DNA of 64,000 bases from Methanospirillum hungatei JF-1. Its GTDB lineage: Archaea; Halobacteriota; Methanomicrobia; Methanomicrobiales; Methanospirillaceae. The position numbers and the translations under genes are program-made. The stretch lies in NCBI RefSeq assembly GCF_000013445.1, contig NC_007796.1:2950936-3014935 (forward strand). Direction: 5' to 3'. Positions within the stretch are counted from its first letter, which is position 1, and the number at the start of each line of letters is the position of its first letter. Shown here piece by piece: positions 58,763 to 63,782 of the stretch. Under the pieces are notes generated by a model, which worked only from the letters and a program-made list of their open reading frames with translations, made no database searches and was not told where the DNA came from.

Positions 58763-60235
58763 ATGGACCGGTATTCACCAGAGCTCGAACGTGTCAAGCA
58801 CTTATTACGTCAATCTCCCCGTGGGATGACAGTCATTGAATTGTCACGTGCATTGAATATCAACCGAAACTCCATGGCGAAATATCTCGACGTTCTGGTC
58901 ATATCAGGGGACGTGGAATTTGACCGGATAGGGCCTGCGAAACATTTTTTCCTCTCGCAGAGGATGCCACTGTATGAGATGCTTAGTGTGACGTCTGACT
59001 GCATTCTCATCCTGGATGCATACAATGTTGTCACCTTCGCAAATACTGCATTCTTTGAAGCGGAAGGGTTGGGACCGGAGACCATCATCGGAAAGAAGAT
59101 CTTCACCCTGAATCTGAAGATGGTCAGTGATGATATATTAAACGGGCTTGAAAGTGCAGGACCTGGAATAACCCTGCAGAAAGAGCTGATCATCAATGCA
59201 GACTCAAATATCAGGATTTTTAATGTAAAGATGATCGGAACCGTCCTGCATGGCGGCATACACGGGATAACTCTTTTTTATGAAGATATTACAAAGAAAA
59301 GACTCTGTCAGGAGCGCCTGAAATCCAGTGAAAAACTCTACCGGGCCGTAGTTGAAGACCAGACAGAGTTTATTATCCGTTATCTCCCGGACAGGACCGT
59401 CATTTTTGCTAATCAGGCATACTGCCGTGCATTCGGTGTTGACAAGGATGATATCATCGGGAAGAAATTCACTCCGCCCATACCACCCAGGGATATGAAG
59501 CGGGTACGATCGCAGTTTGCTGATATCACCGTCAATAACCCGATTGTTACTACTGAAAACCCGGTCATTATGCCTGACATGACACTTGCATGGCATAAAT
59601 GGACAAATCGTGGGCTGTTTAATGACGAAGGGGAGCTGGTGGAATATCAGTCCGTCGGTCGTGATATCACCAGTCAGGTTCGGGGGGAAAAAGCGAAAAT
59701 GGAGCTTATCTTTGAGATAACGCTCCTCTCGGACTTCACAACCGGTCTTCTGGCGATAGAGAATTCCGACCAGCTCTATCAATACCTTGGTGATTACCTG
59801 AAAAAGACCGCGCCGCATTCATGCATTATTATTGTGTCATTTTCAAAGACACAAGGGGCCGTCAGGGTGATCTCACAGGGAACTCACTGGCGAAACAAAA
59901 AATGGTCAGATTATTTTGAGAATCTCATCGGAAAGTCATTTCCCTGTATAGTAGGAGTCCGGACGGTCCTCTCACCCGGATTACTCTCCCCGATGCCCCC
60001 GAACATCTTCGATTATCCGGGGATATCTGGAACACCATTCGCATGCCTTGGCAGGTACCTGAGCCAGTATGAGGTTCACTGTATGGGAATCGGACTAGAA
60101 GAGGAGTGCCAGGGATCAGTACTTTTTATTTCACGTGCAGGAAATCCACCAGGTCCCGAACGTCTTGTTGAGACACTTCTCAGGCAGACCGGGGCATTTT
60201 TGCTCAGAGTAAAGGAAAATTTGAAAGAGTCATAA
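58763..60235 (+). CDS. HTH-PAS-PAS sensor/regulator
   Basis: 490 residues. The N-terminal 70 form a winged HTH (PRGMTVIELSRALNINRNSM, AKYLDVLVISGDVEF). PAS1 covers about 72-180 and PAS2 about 190-305 (TEFIIRYLPDRTVIFANQAY, VGRDIT). The C-terminal 180 residues resemble a GAF-like domain. There is no kinase domain, so it probably binds DNA and responds to a signal directly. It faces the HEAT-repeat gene at 60340. The spacer upstream has TATGC-AAG-GCATA at 58709-58721, a candidate operator. A PAS relic of a second copy lies at 61203. Confidence 0.82.
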   Translation: MDRYSPELERVKHLLRQSPRGMTVIELSRALNINRNSMAKYLDVLVISGDVEFDRIGPAKHFFLSQRMPLYEMLSVTSDCILILDAYNVVTFANTAFFEAEGLGPETIIGKKIFTLNLKMVSDDILNGLESAGPGITLQKELIINADSNIRIFNVKMIGTVLHGGIHGITLFYEDITKKRLCQERLKSSEKLYRAVVEDQTEFIIRYLPDRTVIFANQAYCRAFGVDKDDIIGKKFTPPIPPRDMKRVRSQFADITVNNPIVTTENPVIMPDMTLAWHKWTNRGLFNDEGELVEYQSVGRDITSQVRGEKAKMELIFEITLLSDFTTGLLAIENSDQLYQYLGDYLKKTAPHSCIIIVSFSKTQGAVRVISQGTHWRNKKWSDYFENLIGKSFPCIVGVRTVLSPGLLSPMPPNIFDYPGISGTPFACLGRYLSQYEVHCMGIGLEEECQGSVLFISRAGNPPGPERLVETLLRQTGAFLLRVKENLKES

Positions 60236-60339: not shown

Positions 60340-60705
60340 TCAGGAACGAATTTTTTCCAGGGCTTCTTCAGCTGCGATGCGGACAAAACAATTATCATAC
60401 TGGCATACCTGCTCAAGATGGCGTACTGCCTCTTTGGCCCGGATATTACCAAGGGCTTCAGCAACAATGAACCGCACCATCTGATCTTCATCCTTTAAGA
60501 GTGGAAGGAGATGCGGGACCACGTTTTCATCGCCAATTGTTCCGAGTGCTTCAGCCATGAACATCCTGACCCATTCATTATCATGGACCAGGGACTGAAT
60601 CATATACTGATATGCCGGTTTCCCCATGCTGGCAAGTTTCAAGGCGATTGTGCATCTTTCTTCGTTTGTACTGGACAAGAGTTTCATATAGTGGGTTTCA
60701 GGCAT
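60340..60705 (-). CDS. HEAT-repeat protein
   Basis: 121 residues from ATG 60705 (MPETHYMKLLSS), in register with the paralogue at 61739. Three to four HEAT/PBS-lyase-like repeats: VRMFMAEALGTIGDE, VRFIVAEALGNIRAK and VRIAAEEALEKI, with LLPLLKDEDQ between. Such proteins bind other proteins or cofactors. The gene ends 105 bases after the convergent HTH-PAS gene. A 35-bp element at 60802 upstream is shared with the paralogue. Confidence 0.82.
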   Translation of the reverse strand: MPETHYMKLLSSTNEERCTIALKLASMGKPAYQYMIQSLVHDNEWVRMFMAEALGTIGDENVVPHLLPLLKDEDQMVRFIVAEALGNIRAKEAVRHLEQVCQYDNCFVRIAAEEALEKIRS

Positions 60706-60801
60706 GCTTACACCTTGTAAGAGGTATCCATACGATCGATAGTGACCATCCGGACATAACACTCCTACACTGTTCCATTCTCATTCAGACCGGCATAAAC
60801 C

Positions 60802-61012: not shown

Positions 61013-61023
61013 CATATATAAAT
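61013..61023 (+). promoter_or_regulatory. TATA box before the PAS relic
   Basis: CATATATAAAT is a strong archaeal TATA box. Transcription would start near 61045. The gap 60839-61202 holds only short frames (for example one from 61070) without domain support. The promoter may be what is left of the duplicated regulator's control region. Confidence 0.45.
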
Positions 61024-61202
61024 ACGTGTACTGGAGTCCTGCTTCACAGATCATTACATCTTGTGAGACATGATACTATCATATGTCCAGCTTGCCAGTG
61101 CCCGTATGTGCGGAAGAAAGAATATCCATTCATCCGTCATCCGGCCCCTTATTGAGTCAGAAATCGCCTCCTTCCGGTGTCCTGGGAGAACAAAATCCTG
61201 CG

Positions 61203-61490
61203 ATGAAGGAGAGAATTTCTGATGCTGTTCTCATTCTTGATGAATACCTTGGTATATCATACTACAATCAGGAATTCTCCTATCTGGAATCAGCTGATGA
61301 ACGAAATTACATCGGAAAAAATCTCATGCAATGTTTCTTCCGGATGATTCCCCCCTCCATGTACGAGTACATCGAGACGATTGTGCCGGGAATGGTAATC
61401 AGGAAGACCTATACCATCCATGCCGCTGATCAGGACTACTGCTTTCAGTACCACATACTGGGGACTTTGCATGGGAACGGACGGCCGTGA
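61203..61490 (+). pseudogene. PAS-domain relic of a second HTH-PAS regulator
   Basis: From ATG 61203 the frame reads ISDAVLILDEYLGISYYNQE, NYIGKNLMQCFFRMI and YHILGTLHGNGRP, then stops. It lines up with PAS1 of the protein at 58763 (SDCILILDAYNVVTFAN, TIIGKKIFTLNLKMV, MIGTVLHGGIHG). After the TGA the same frame goes on VIILIKPEPDN. The HTH and the rest of the protein are absent. It stands to the HEAT gene at 61739 as the intact regulator stands to the one at 60340, so the pair was duplicated and this half decayed. Confidence 0.6.
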
Positions 61491-61738: not shown

Positions 61739-62104
61739 TTATTTCAGGATCTTTTCAATTGCTTCTTCTGCACTGACACGGACAAAGCAATTATCCTCTC
61801 TGCACACTTCTTCAAGATAAGGAATAGCATCTTTTGAACCAAGATTTCCAAGGGACTCTGCTGCCATGAACCGAACCATCTGGTCCTCATCTTTCAGAAG
61901 TGGAAGCAGGTTTGGGAGTGCCTGGGCATCACCTATGTTTCCAAGTGCTTCGGCCATGAACATTCGGACCCATTCATTCTCATCTGCAAGTGACTGGACA
62001 ATATATTGATATGCTGGTTTTCCGATCTTTGCAAGATCAAGCGCTACGGAGCATTTTTCTGCTTTGTCGCAGGATACAAGACGTTTATAATGCGTTTCGG
62101 GCAT
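61739..62104 (-). CDS. HEAT-repeat protein, paralogue
   Basis: 121 residues from ATG 62104 (MPETHYKRLVSC), strongly similar to the protein at 60340 along its whole length: KIGKPAYQYIVQSLADENEW, VRMFMAEALGNIGDA, LLPLLKDEDQMVRFMAAESL and VRVSAEEAIEKIL. Conservation of the repeat faces suggests the same ligand. It keeps its own copy of the upstream element (62213-62248). The gap to the PAS relic (61491-61738) shows no gene. Confidence 0.82.
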   Translation of the reverse strand: MPETHYKRLVSCDKAEKCSVALDLAKIGKPAYQYIVQSLADENEWVRMFMAEALGNIGDAQALPNLLPLLKDEDQMVRFMAAESLGNLGSKDAIPYLEEVCREDNCFVRVSAEEAIEKILK

Positions 62105-62212
62105 AACTATCACCTATGGGAGAACCAGGACGAACAGCACACAGGAAAACTGTCCGCATGATTGTTCCCGACCTCCCTACTCACAACTCTTGTGAGAACC
62201 GGTTATTAAGCA

Positions 62213-62492: not shown

Positions 62493-62502
62493 GAATATAT
62501 AG
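62493..62502 (+). promoter_or_regulatory. TATA box of SLOG gene 1
   Basis: GAATATATAG lies about 120 bases before the ATG at 62615. A start about 25 bases downstream gives a leader of roughly 90 nt that contains the hairpin at 62562-62600. Confidence 0.5.
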
Positions 62503-62561
62503 ATAACCCTAAAGGACTCCAATTAAACCTTTTTCAAATAATTTTACACCAAAGGAAGTAT

Positions 62562-62600
62562 GTTCACCCGTGGCATCATGGTGCTGGTGACACGGCGAAC
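62562..62600 (+). ncRNA. candidate structured 5' leader (hairpin) of SLOG gene 1
   Basis: The segment folds as GTTC-AC-CCGTG-G-CATC-[ATGGTGCT]-GGTG-A-CACGG-C-GAAC: an outer 4-bp stem, an AC/C internal loop, a 5-bp stem, and an inner 4-bp stem closing a loop with GGTGCT. It is followed at once by AAAGGAGAG and the ATG. The same architecture precedes the paralogous gene at 63322, with two base pairs exchanged in compensating fashion. It is not assigned to any known riboswitch family. Confidence 0.6.
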
Positions 62601-62614
62601 AAAGGAGAGAAGCC

Positions 62615-63028
62615 ATGAAAAGACTCATCGTTTCAGGACTTCGGACCTGTGACCGAAAGGACATCGTCGAAGCTGAAATCTCGAAATATATTATGGAGAT
62701 AGGAGGCGTCGATGAGATCGTGTCCGGTGGTTCAGAAGGTGTGGACCTCTTTGCCAAAGAATATGCACAGGAGAATGGAATTAAGTATGTTGAGTTCCTT
62801 CCAGACTGGCAGAGTCATATCAATGCAGCCAGTTTTATCCGGGATGCCCGAATGGTTGAGTATGGCACTCATCTGCTTGTCCTCTCAAACGGAATCAGCA
62901 AAGAATCTTTAAACCTTATCGAAGAGGCCAGAAGAAACCGCCTCACTATCAAAACAATCGGCGTCTTTAAAGGAATGCCCGGACATGAAAGCGGGTATGC
63001 CGGTGCATATCCGGGAACATTCTATTAA
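62615..63028 (+). CDS. SLOG-superfamily (DUF2493/YspA-like) protein 1
   Basis: 137 residues with a Rossmann-like SLOG fold: LIVSGLRTCDRKDIVE, then DEIVSGGSEGVDLFAKEYAQ (the G-G-x-x-G-x-D nucleotide-binding loop), VEFLPDWQSHINAASFIRD, and THLLVLSNG. The family binds nucleotides or nucleotide-derived signals; some relatives act in nucleotide-linked immunity. The start follows AAAGGAGAG by 7 bases. Its leader carries the conserved hairpin. It is a paralogue of the gene at 63372. Function is unknown. Confidence 0.75.
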   Translation: MKRLIVSGLRTCDRKDIVEAEISKYIMEIGGVDEIVSGGSEGVDLFAKEYAQENGIKYVEFLPDWQSHINAASFIRDARMVEYGTHLLVLSNGISKESLNLIEEARRNRLTIKTIGVFKGMPGHESGYAGAYPGTFY

Positions 63029-63251
63029 TGCCATACGGTATCTCCTCCGTCCCTCCAAATACATACCCGGATGCATGAGACCCTCCTCTCATGTCTTTTG
63101 TTTCTGTTGACTGACTGTCCCACCCTTTTTTTCGCATATCATGATTACTCCTGAGAGAGAATATCGGATTATGAATAATCTAAAGAAGAAAATGGAACCA
63201 AGAGATATTCGGGAAGAGAGAATTGCAGGATTTTATTTTACGTTTTAATTT

Positions 63252-63263
63252 AATATATAAAAG
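63252..63263 (+). promoter_or_regulatory. TATA box of SLOG gene 2
   Basis: AATATATAAAAG lies about 120 bases before ATG 63372, the same distance as in the paralogue. The expected leader is again close to 90 nt. The gap 63029-63251 shows no gene. Confidence 0.55.
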
Positions 63264-63321
63264 TATTTTTTATGGAGTTTAGATAAGATACCTATTTTTA
63301 ACCACAAATGCAAGGATGTTT

Positions 63322-63356
63322 GTTCACATGTGCATCGGTGCTGATGCCACATGAAC
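63322..63356 (+). ncRNA. candidate structured 5' leader (hairpin) of SLOG gene 2
   Basis: The segment folds as GTTC-AC-ATGTG-CATC-[GGTGCT]-GATG-C-CACAT-GAAC. The outer stem, the AC bulge, the inner CATC stem and the GGTGCT loop are as in 62562-62600. In the middle stem two C-G pairs became A-T and T-A, and the inner T-G wobble became T-A. CAGGAGAG, the ribosome-binding site, follows directly. Confidence 0.6.
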
Positions 63357-63371
63357 CAGGAGAGAATGATC

Positions 63372-63782
63372 ATGAAGAAACTCATTGTAACCGGCCTTCG
63401 GACCTGCGAAAGAAAAGACCTCGTATATGCAGAAATCAGCAAGTATATCTCTGAAATTGGCGGAGTTGACGAGATTGTATCAGGTGGATCCAAAGGTGTT
63501 GACACCTATACCAGACAGTATGCAGAAGAACACGGCATTAAGTTCAAGGAGTTCACCCCTGACTTCCAGAGCCATATCAATGCTGCAACCTTCATCCGTG
63601 ATTCAGAGATGGCAGAATATGGAACTCACCTGCTTGTCCTCTCAAACGGAATCAGCAAGGAATCAAAGAACCTCATCGCTGAAGCACGATCACACAATCT
63701 TCAGGTAAAAAGTGTCGGAGGATTTGAAGGACCTTCAGAGAGTGAGATGTACAGACCTGGTACCGTCCCGACCCTTTACTAA
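63372..63782 (+). CDS. SLOG-superfamily (DUF2493/YspA-like) protein 2
   Basis: 136 residues from ATG 63372, set by alignment with the first copy and by AGGAGAG 7 bases upstream. It is highly similar to gene 1: LIVTGLRTCERKDLVYAE, EIVSGGSKGVDTYTRQYAEE, FKEFTPDFQSHINAATFIRD and THLLVLSNGISKES. The C-terminal 25 residues diverge but both end in a Gly/Pro-rich tail (PGTVPTLY, PGTFY). Both copies keep the nucleotide loop. Two intact copies with the same leader suggest both are used, perhaps for different signals. Confidence 0.75.
   Translation: MKKLIVTGLRTCERKDLVYAEISKYISEIGGVDEIVSGGSKGVDTYTRQYAEEHGIKFKEFTPDFQSHINAATFIRDSEMAEYGTHLLVLSNGISKESKNLIAEARSHNLQVKSVGGFEGPSESEMYRPGTVPTLY

Follow-up and report, generated by a model that had tools for sequence, protein, structure and literature searches.

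A conserved hairpin in the leaders of tandem SLOG-family genes of Methanospirillum, a candidate cis-regulatory RNA

Two tandem genes of the SLOG superfamily lie in a 64,000-nt stretch of the closed Methanospirillum hungatei JF-1 genome (positions 2950936-3014935 of 3,544,738 bp; hereafter the window), each with a TATA box, a leader hairpin and a Shine-Dalgarno sequence (Table 1). Both products belong to the YAcAr/YspA SLOG family, PF10686, scoring 61.6 and 52.8 bits against the curated cut-off of 28.2 for the Pfam profile. About 1 kb beyond the window end, at genome position 3015956, begins a third tandem copy that carries this leader too, and a fourth copy, 56% identical, is found at position 2060294. 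The SLOG protein was modelled with moderate confidence (pLDDT 71), and the model gave weak matches to PDB folds, none at E<=0.001, with DprA among the best. An NAD+-linked activity has been predicted for YAcAr proteins (PMC7824862).

Table 1. Features of the two SLOG genes and their leaders, in window coordinates. A-type leaders carry the hairpin of the window genes; B-type leaders carry a diverged one. R1 is the covariance model described in the text.
Feature	Position	Strand	Evidence or remark
TATA box, gene 1 (TATATAG)	62496..62502 (about)	+	sequence; TATA block aligned in all homologues
GGACTCC near-palindromic box, gene 1	62514..62520	+	kept in A- and B-type SLOG promoters
Leader hairpin 1	62562..62600	+	sequence, folding, covariation, covariance model
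Hairpin 1, P1 arms	62562-62565 / 62597-62600
Hairpin 1, P2 arms	62568-62572 / 62591-62595
Hairpin 1, P3 arms	62574-62577 / 62586-62589
Hairpin 1, apical loop	62578-62585
Shine-Dalgarno GGAGAG, gene 1	62604..62609	+	3 nt past hairpin; kept in leader alignment
SLOG/YAcAr gene 1	62615..63028	+	137 aa; Pfam PF10686 E 6.2e-17; ATG 62615
TATA box, gene 2 (TATATAAAA)	63254..63262 (about)	+	sequence; homologue alignment
GGAGTTT, variant of the GGACTCC box, gene 2	63274..63280	+	aligned with the box of other members
Leader hairpin 2	63322..63356	+	held-out match of model R1, 40.3 bits, E 7.5e-11; sequence, folding, covariation
Hairpin 2, P1 arms	63322-63325 / 63353-63356
Hairpin 2, P2 arms	63328-63332 / 63348-63352
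Hairpin 2, P3 arms	63333-63336 / 63343-63346
Hairpin 2, apical loop	63337-63342
Shine-Dalgarno GGAGAG, gene 2	63359..63364	+	2 nt past hairpin; sequence
SLOG/YAcAr gene 2	63372..63782	+	136 aa; Pfam PF10686 E 3.5e-14; ATG 63372

The common fold that an earlier note on this DNA had described in both leaders can be read directly from the sequence. In each, an outer helix P1 (GTTC/GAAC) is followed by an AC bulge and a middle helix P2, which is CCGTG/CACGG in hairpin 1 and ATGTG/CACAT in hairpin 2; the inner helix P3 is CATC/GGTG and CATC/GATG, respectively, and these stem differences are likewise as the note gave them. Single letters stand between the helices of hairpin 1 (G before CATC, A after GGTG and C before GAAC), while hairpin 2 has a C between GATG and CACAT. 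The constant GGTGCT loop of the note is found in gene 2, as an apical loop of 6 nt, whereas the loop of gene 1 has 8 nt and reads ATGGTGCT. In both leaders the Shine-Dalgarno sequence lies outside the stem and is not sequestered by the hairpin. The folding energy of single sequences alone would not establish a selected structure: compared with shuffles, the 41-nt hairpins and leader 1 have z values between -1.0 and -1.3, and for leader 2 folded with its flanks z is +0.6, the minimum-free-energy fold replacing the outer GTTC/GAAC helix.

Upstream of both genes the TATA box stands about 115 bp away, in agreement with the 120 bp or so given before; the accompanying leader length of roughly 90 nt is a prediction from the position of this box rather than a measurement. 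The hairpin noted earlier proved to be one of two conserved elements, and the second, a GGACTCC-like box, was absent from that account. This box lies between the TATA box and the predicted start site, 11-14 nt after TATA, and is common to all SLOG leader promoters. Elsewhere in the genus it reads GGACGCC, GGCGTCC or GGCCTCC, with some copies weaker, and it is kept in B-type promoters whose hairpin has changed. We regard it as a candidate operator or initiator element. A genome-wide regulon marked by TATA-N-GGASTCC was considered and rejected, there being no enrichment (45 matches vs 74 for the reversed control). A stretch at 61017-61039, TATATAAATACGTGTACTGGAGTCC, shows the TATA-box spacing of the SLOG promoters, possibly by chance; it precedes a short open frame (starting at 61083 or 61204 and ending at 61490) that is similar to a portion of the PAS-domain protein encoded at 58763-60235.

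The genomic setting of the family is recurrent. In 5/5 genomes inspected, the leader-bearing SLOG genes directly precede genes for a response regulator and a large multi-PAS protein, which suggests a functional link to signal transduction. In L078 (8563-12803), past the window end, the response-regulator and multi-PAS protein genes lie downstream of the SLOG genes, an arrangement seen in A- and B-type genomes. Upstream of the SLOG genes there is a rubrerythrin gene in the three A-type genomes and a carbonic anhydrase gene in the two B-type genomes of these five; a distant SLOG paralogue of M. hungatei likewise adjoins a carbonic anhydrase gene. Two SLOG copies of genome G149 are set apart, beside an enolase-like gene identified by eye. 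Between the rubrerythrin and SLOG genes of the window, on the opposite (-) strand, sit two genes for HEAT-repeat proteins (60340-60762 and 61739-62113; 66% identical over 119 aa). The corresponding regions of the other inspected genomes have no counterparts, and these genes were therefore likely inserted in the M. hungatei lineage.

SLOG homologues with 56-91% protein identity are present in 9/11 other Methanospirillum genomes, and three genomes carry the genes as tandem duplicates. Close relatives were found in none of 148 other genomes of the order and in no viral contigs. In a phylum sample of 393 genomes (E<=1e-12), matches were confined to the window genome and a second Methanospirillum, and a scan of 84,980 GTDB r220 species genomes returned SLOG relatives only in Methanospirillum records. 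The earlier note expected further leaders upstream of SLOG genes, and there are 10 more of the A-type, making 12 (one degenerate) in five Methanospirillum genomes: three each in the window genome, G153 and G149, two in G151 and one in G158. Diverged, B-type leaders occur in four other genomes (L012-L015), where a 7-bp stem, ATCTGCG/CGCAGAT, occupies the same place; one of them reads ATCTGTG/CACAGAT, a double change from C-G to T-A, and four sequences are too few for covariation to be significant on their own.

Several members depart from these two forms. The leader of L011 stands between the two, and a stop codon interrupts the gene in frame. Among SLOG forms, only the distant paralogue (L004, L008, L022 and L023) lacks the hairpin; in L004, the copy inspected, the TATA box is only about 33 bp before the ATG, so that it has hardly any leader. 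In the third tandem copy of G153 (G153c; L017, upstream of 1501) the hairpin is degenerate and the gene intact, which makes this copy a natural comparison for loss of the element. The two outer P2 pairs are lost in the Mh3 and G158 leaders.

Here we show that the hairpin is better conserved than its surroundings. Between the two window genes it is 74% identical, compared with 39% at fourfold-degenerate sites and 41% in the spacer from box to hairpin. Mean pairwise identity among the 12 genes is 73% in the hairpin, 52% in the rest of the leader, 31% upstream of TATA and 45% at fourfold sites, of which the partial gene of G158 has too few to count. The letters kept best include the GGTGCT loop, the AC bulge and GTTC, and the outer P2 pairs are seen as C-G, A-T, T-A and T-G.

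Covariation was judged against a null in which paired columns evolved independently on the coding-sequence tree, at rates matched to the observed changes. With G153c left out, 65.5% of variant pair cells still paired, compared with 20% expected (0/4000 simulations were as high), and the extra pair types numbered 12, where 4.4 were expected (P 0.00025); with both G153c and G149b left out, the still-pairing measure gave P 0.0025. For the seven ungapped leaders, which involve no gap choices, the covariation score was reached by 4/500 shuffles. The stem alignment was set to the structure by hand, which favours structure, and the result under the tree-based null is therefore good rather than conclusive evidence.

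Seven leaders of equal length, window leader 2 not among them, went into a covariance model, R1. The model recovered the held-out leaders Mh2 (window leader 2; the score in Table 1), G151a (34.2 bits), G149a (31.2) and G149b (24.3), and gave only 12-14 bits to the degenerate G153c and the intermediate L011. Matches at E 1e-5 to 1e-20 were solely in front of SLOG genes, as were all matches better than E 0.05 per genome throughout the genus; the best match elsewhere in the M. hungatei genome had E 0.3. In 150 genomes of the rest of the order there were six weak matches (E 0.001-0.009 per genome), all inside long open frames, which look like chance, and no convincing leader was found outside Methanospirillum. 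Since the hairpin is conserved above fourfold sites and keeps its pairing above the tree-based null, a selected RNA structure is supported by comparison of the sequences; on both points, and with the held-out matches of R1 in addition, the earlier proposals of selected structure and of covariation above background hold up.

The element matches no Rfam family. Rfam 15 at gathering thresholds gave no match across the whole window, nor did the hairpins match when 1 kb was scanned with the limit relaxed to E 10, in keeping with the remark that no named riboswitch could be assigned. A literature search found nothing about leaders of DUF2493/YspA genes or about M. hungatei RNA elements. Three further candidates were tried and rejected. 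An L7Ae-type k-turn does not fit the 12 leaders, in which Watson-Crick or wobble P2 pairs follow the AC bulge with no G:A tandem and box C (UGAUGA) is not conserved. A switch in which the Shine-Dalgarno sequence would pair alternatively with TTGTTC or the GGACTCC box is broken in several leaders (the box is GGAGTTT in gene 2, and GAGAA is absent in G153a, G149c and G149a). For a short upstream reading frame (ATG GTG CTG ATG ... in L002), neither frame nor start is conserved.

Our preferred reading of the possibilities raised earlier is a protein-responsive element, which is plausible. The asymmetric, conserved loop core together with changing stem letters suggests recognition of the RNA by a protein, and, as in protein-binding autoregulatory leaders, a conserved leader structure is confined to one gene family. 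We propose that the hairpin is a cis-acting 5'-leader element, recognised by a protein and controlling translation of the Methanospirillum SLOG family, and hold the chances of this to be about evenly balanced. The hairpin would be transcribed within the leader, and a trans-acting protein would recognise the GGTGCT core and the bulged stem and so jointly set how much the SLOG mRNAs are translated (or how long they last). Such a protein could block the ribosome, because the Shine-Dalgarno sequence starts a few nucleotides after the stem; occlusion would need the bound factor, since the naked hairpin leaves that sequence free. The GGACTCC box may add a separate transcriptional control. Non-extreme folding energies, the lost pairs of Mh3 and G158, the degenerate G153c and the free Shine-Dalgarno sequence count against this proposal, as do the weak PDB fold comparison and the setting of the stem alignment by hand.

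As the factor, the SLOG protein itself would be the most economical candidate. Autogenous control, for which L7Ae is a precedent with a different motif, is preferred because it would account for a hairpin on SLOG genes only, tandem copies included, and it could keep tandem paralogues at a common level. The full proposal, in which the YAcAr protein binds the hairpin of its own mRNA and regulates translation, perhaps by way of a bound nucleotide, would make it the first RNA-binding autoregulator of the SLOG family, and we consider it doubtful at present.

Among the alternatives, a passive 5' hairpin that blocks mRNA decay from the 5' end or keeps the ribosome-binding site open, with no specific trans-acting factor, is possible but not probable. 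It agrees with a simple imperfect stem directly 5' of an unsequestered Shine-Dalgarno sequence, and with stem letters that vary freely while pairing is kept; it has no need of a conserved loop, however, yet the loop GGTGCT is strongly kept, together with the AC bulge and GTTC, and restriction to one family is odd for a general stabiliser. We think it unlikely that the element is instead a DNA operator, an inverted repeat bound by a transcription factor some 40 bp past the start site. The hairpin doubles as an inverted repeat, and the near-palindromic GGACTCC box lies near the predicted start site, but the arms change with compensation and do not conserve half-site letters, their spacing varies by 3 nt, the asymmetric centre is the most conserved part, and in B-type leaders the arms are wholly changed while a GG(A/C)CTCC box stays.

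A riboswitch for a metabolite or nucleotide, the other suggestion of the earlier note, now appears very unlikely, since both a binding pocket and an expression platform are lacking. Leader position, the conserved loop and the nucleotide-related nature of SLOG proteins (PMC7824862) speak for it. What is found in the leader, however, is one short imperfect hairpin of 39 nt with a loop of 6-8 nt and neither a multi-helix junction nor a conserved pseudoknot partner; no U-run or terminator follows it, no alternative partner for the Shine-Dalgarno sequence is conserved, and the element, absent from Rfam, occurs in one genus. That the hairpin is a functionless leftover of duplication is scarcely credible, tandem duplicates in three genomes notwithstanding, given its identity between the window genes relative to fourfold sites and flanking leader.

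Only a small number of cis-regulatory RNA structures are well characterised in archaea, and most of the known ones belong to ribosomal proteins or widespread riboswitches. The SLOG hairpin is a real candidate for another, apparently undescribed and confined to one genus. It sits on a family that adjoins response-regulator and multi-PAS sensor genes, and is compact enough for quick tests; if the SLOG protein does bind it, a nucleotide-signalling fold would be linked to mRNA control. A leader hairpin specific to a gene family is a well-known kind of element, found here with a distribution of one genus.

The preQ1-I riboswitch is likewise a compact single hairpin near the ribosome-binding site; the SLOG hairpin differs in having no loop pseudoknot partner, no Shine-Dalgarno sequestration and no Rfam match. 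Ribosomal-protein leaders of bacteria and archaea are, like the SLOG leaders, structured and specific to a gene family, and are recognised by their own gene product, whereas the SLOG product is not known as an RNA binder and no Rfam leader family matches its hairpin. The archaeal L7Ae autoregulatory leader carries a k-turn hairpin in its 5' UTR (PMC6298567). Both are short archaeal 5'-leader stem-loops at the ribosome-binding site of one gene family, under translational autocontrol that in the SLOG case is only proposed. The SLOG gene is not ribosomal, however, and its hairpin has no kink-turn (a 3-nt bulge, then tandem G:A pairs) and precedes the Shine-Dalgarno sequence rather than overlapping it.
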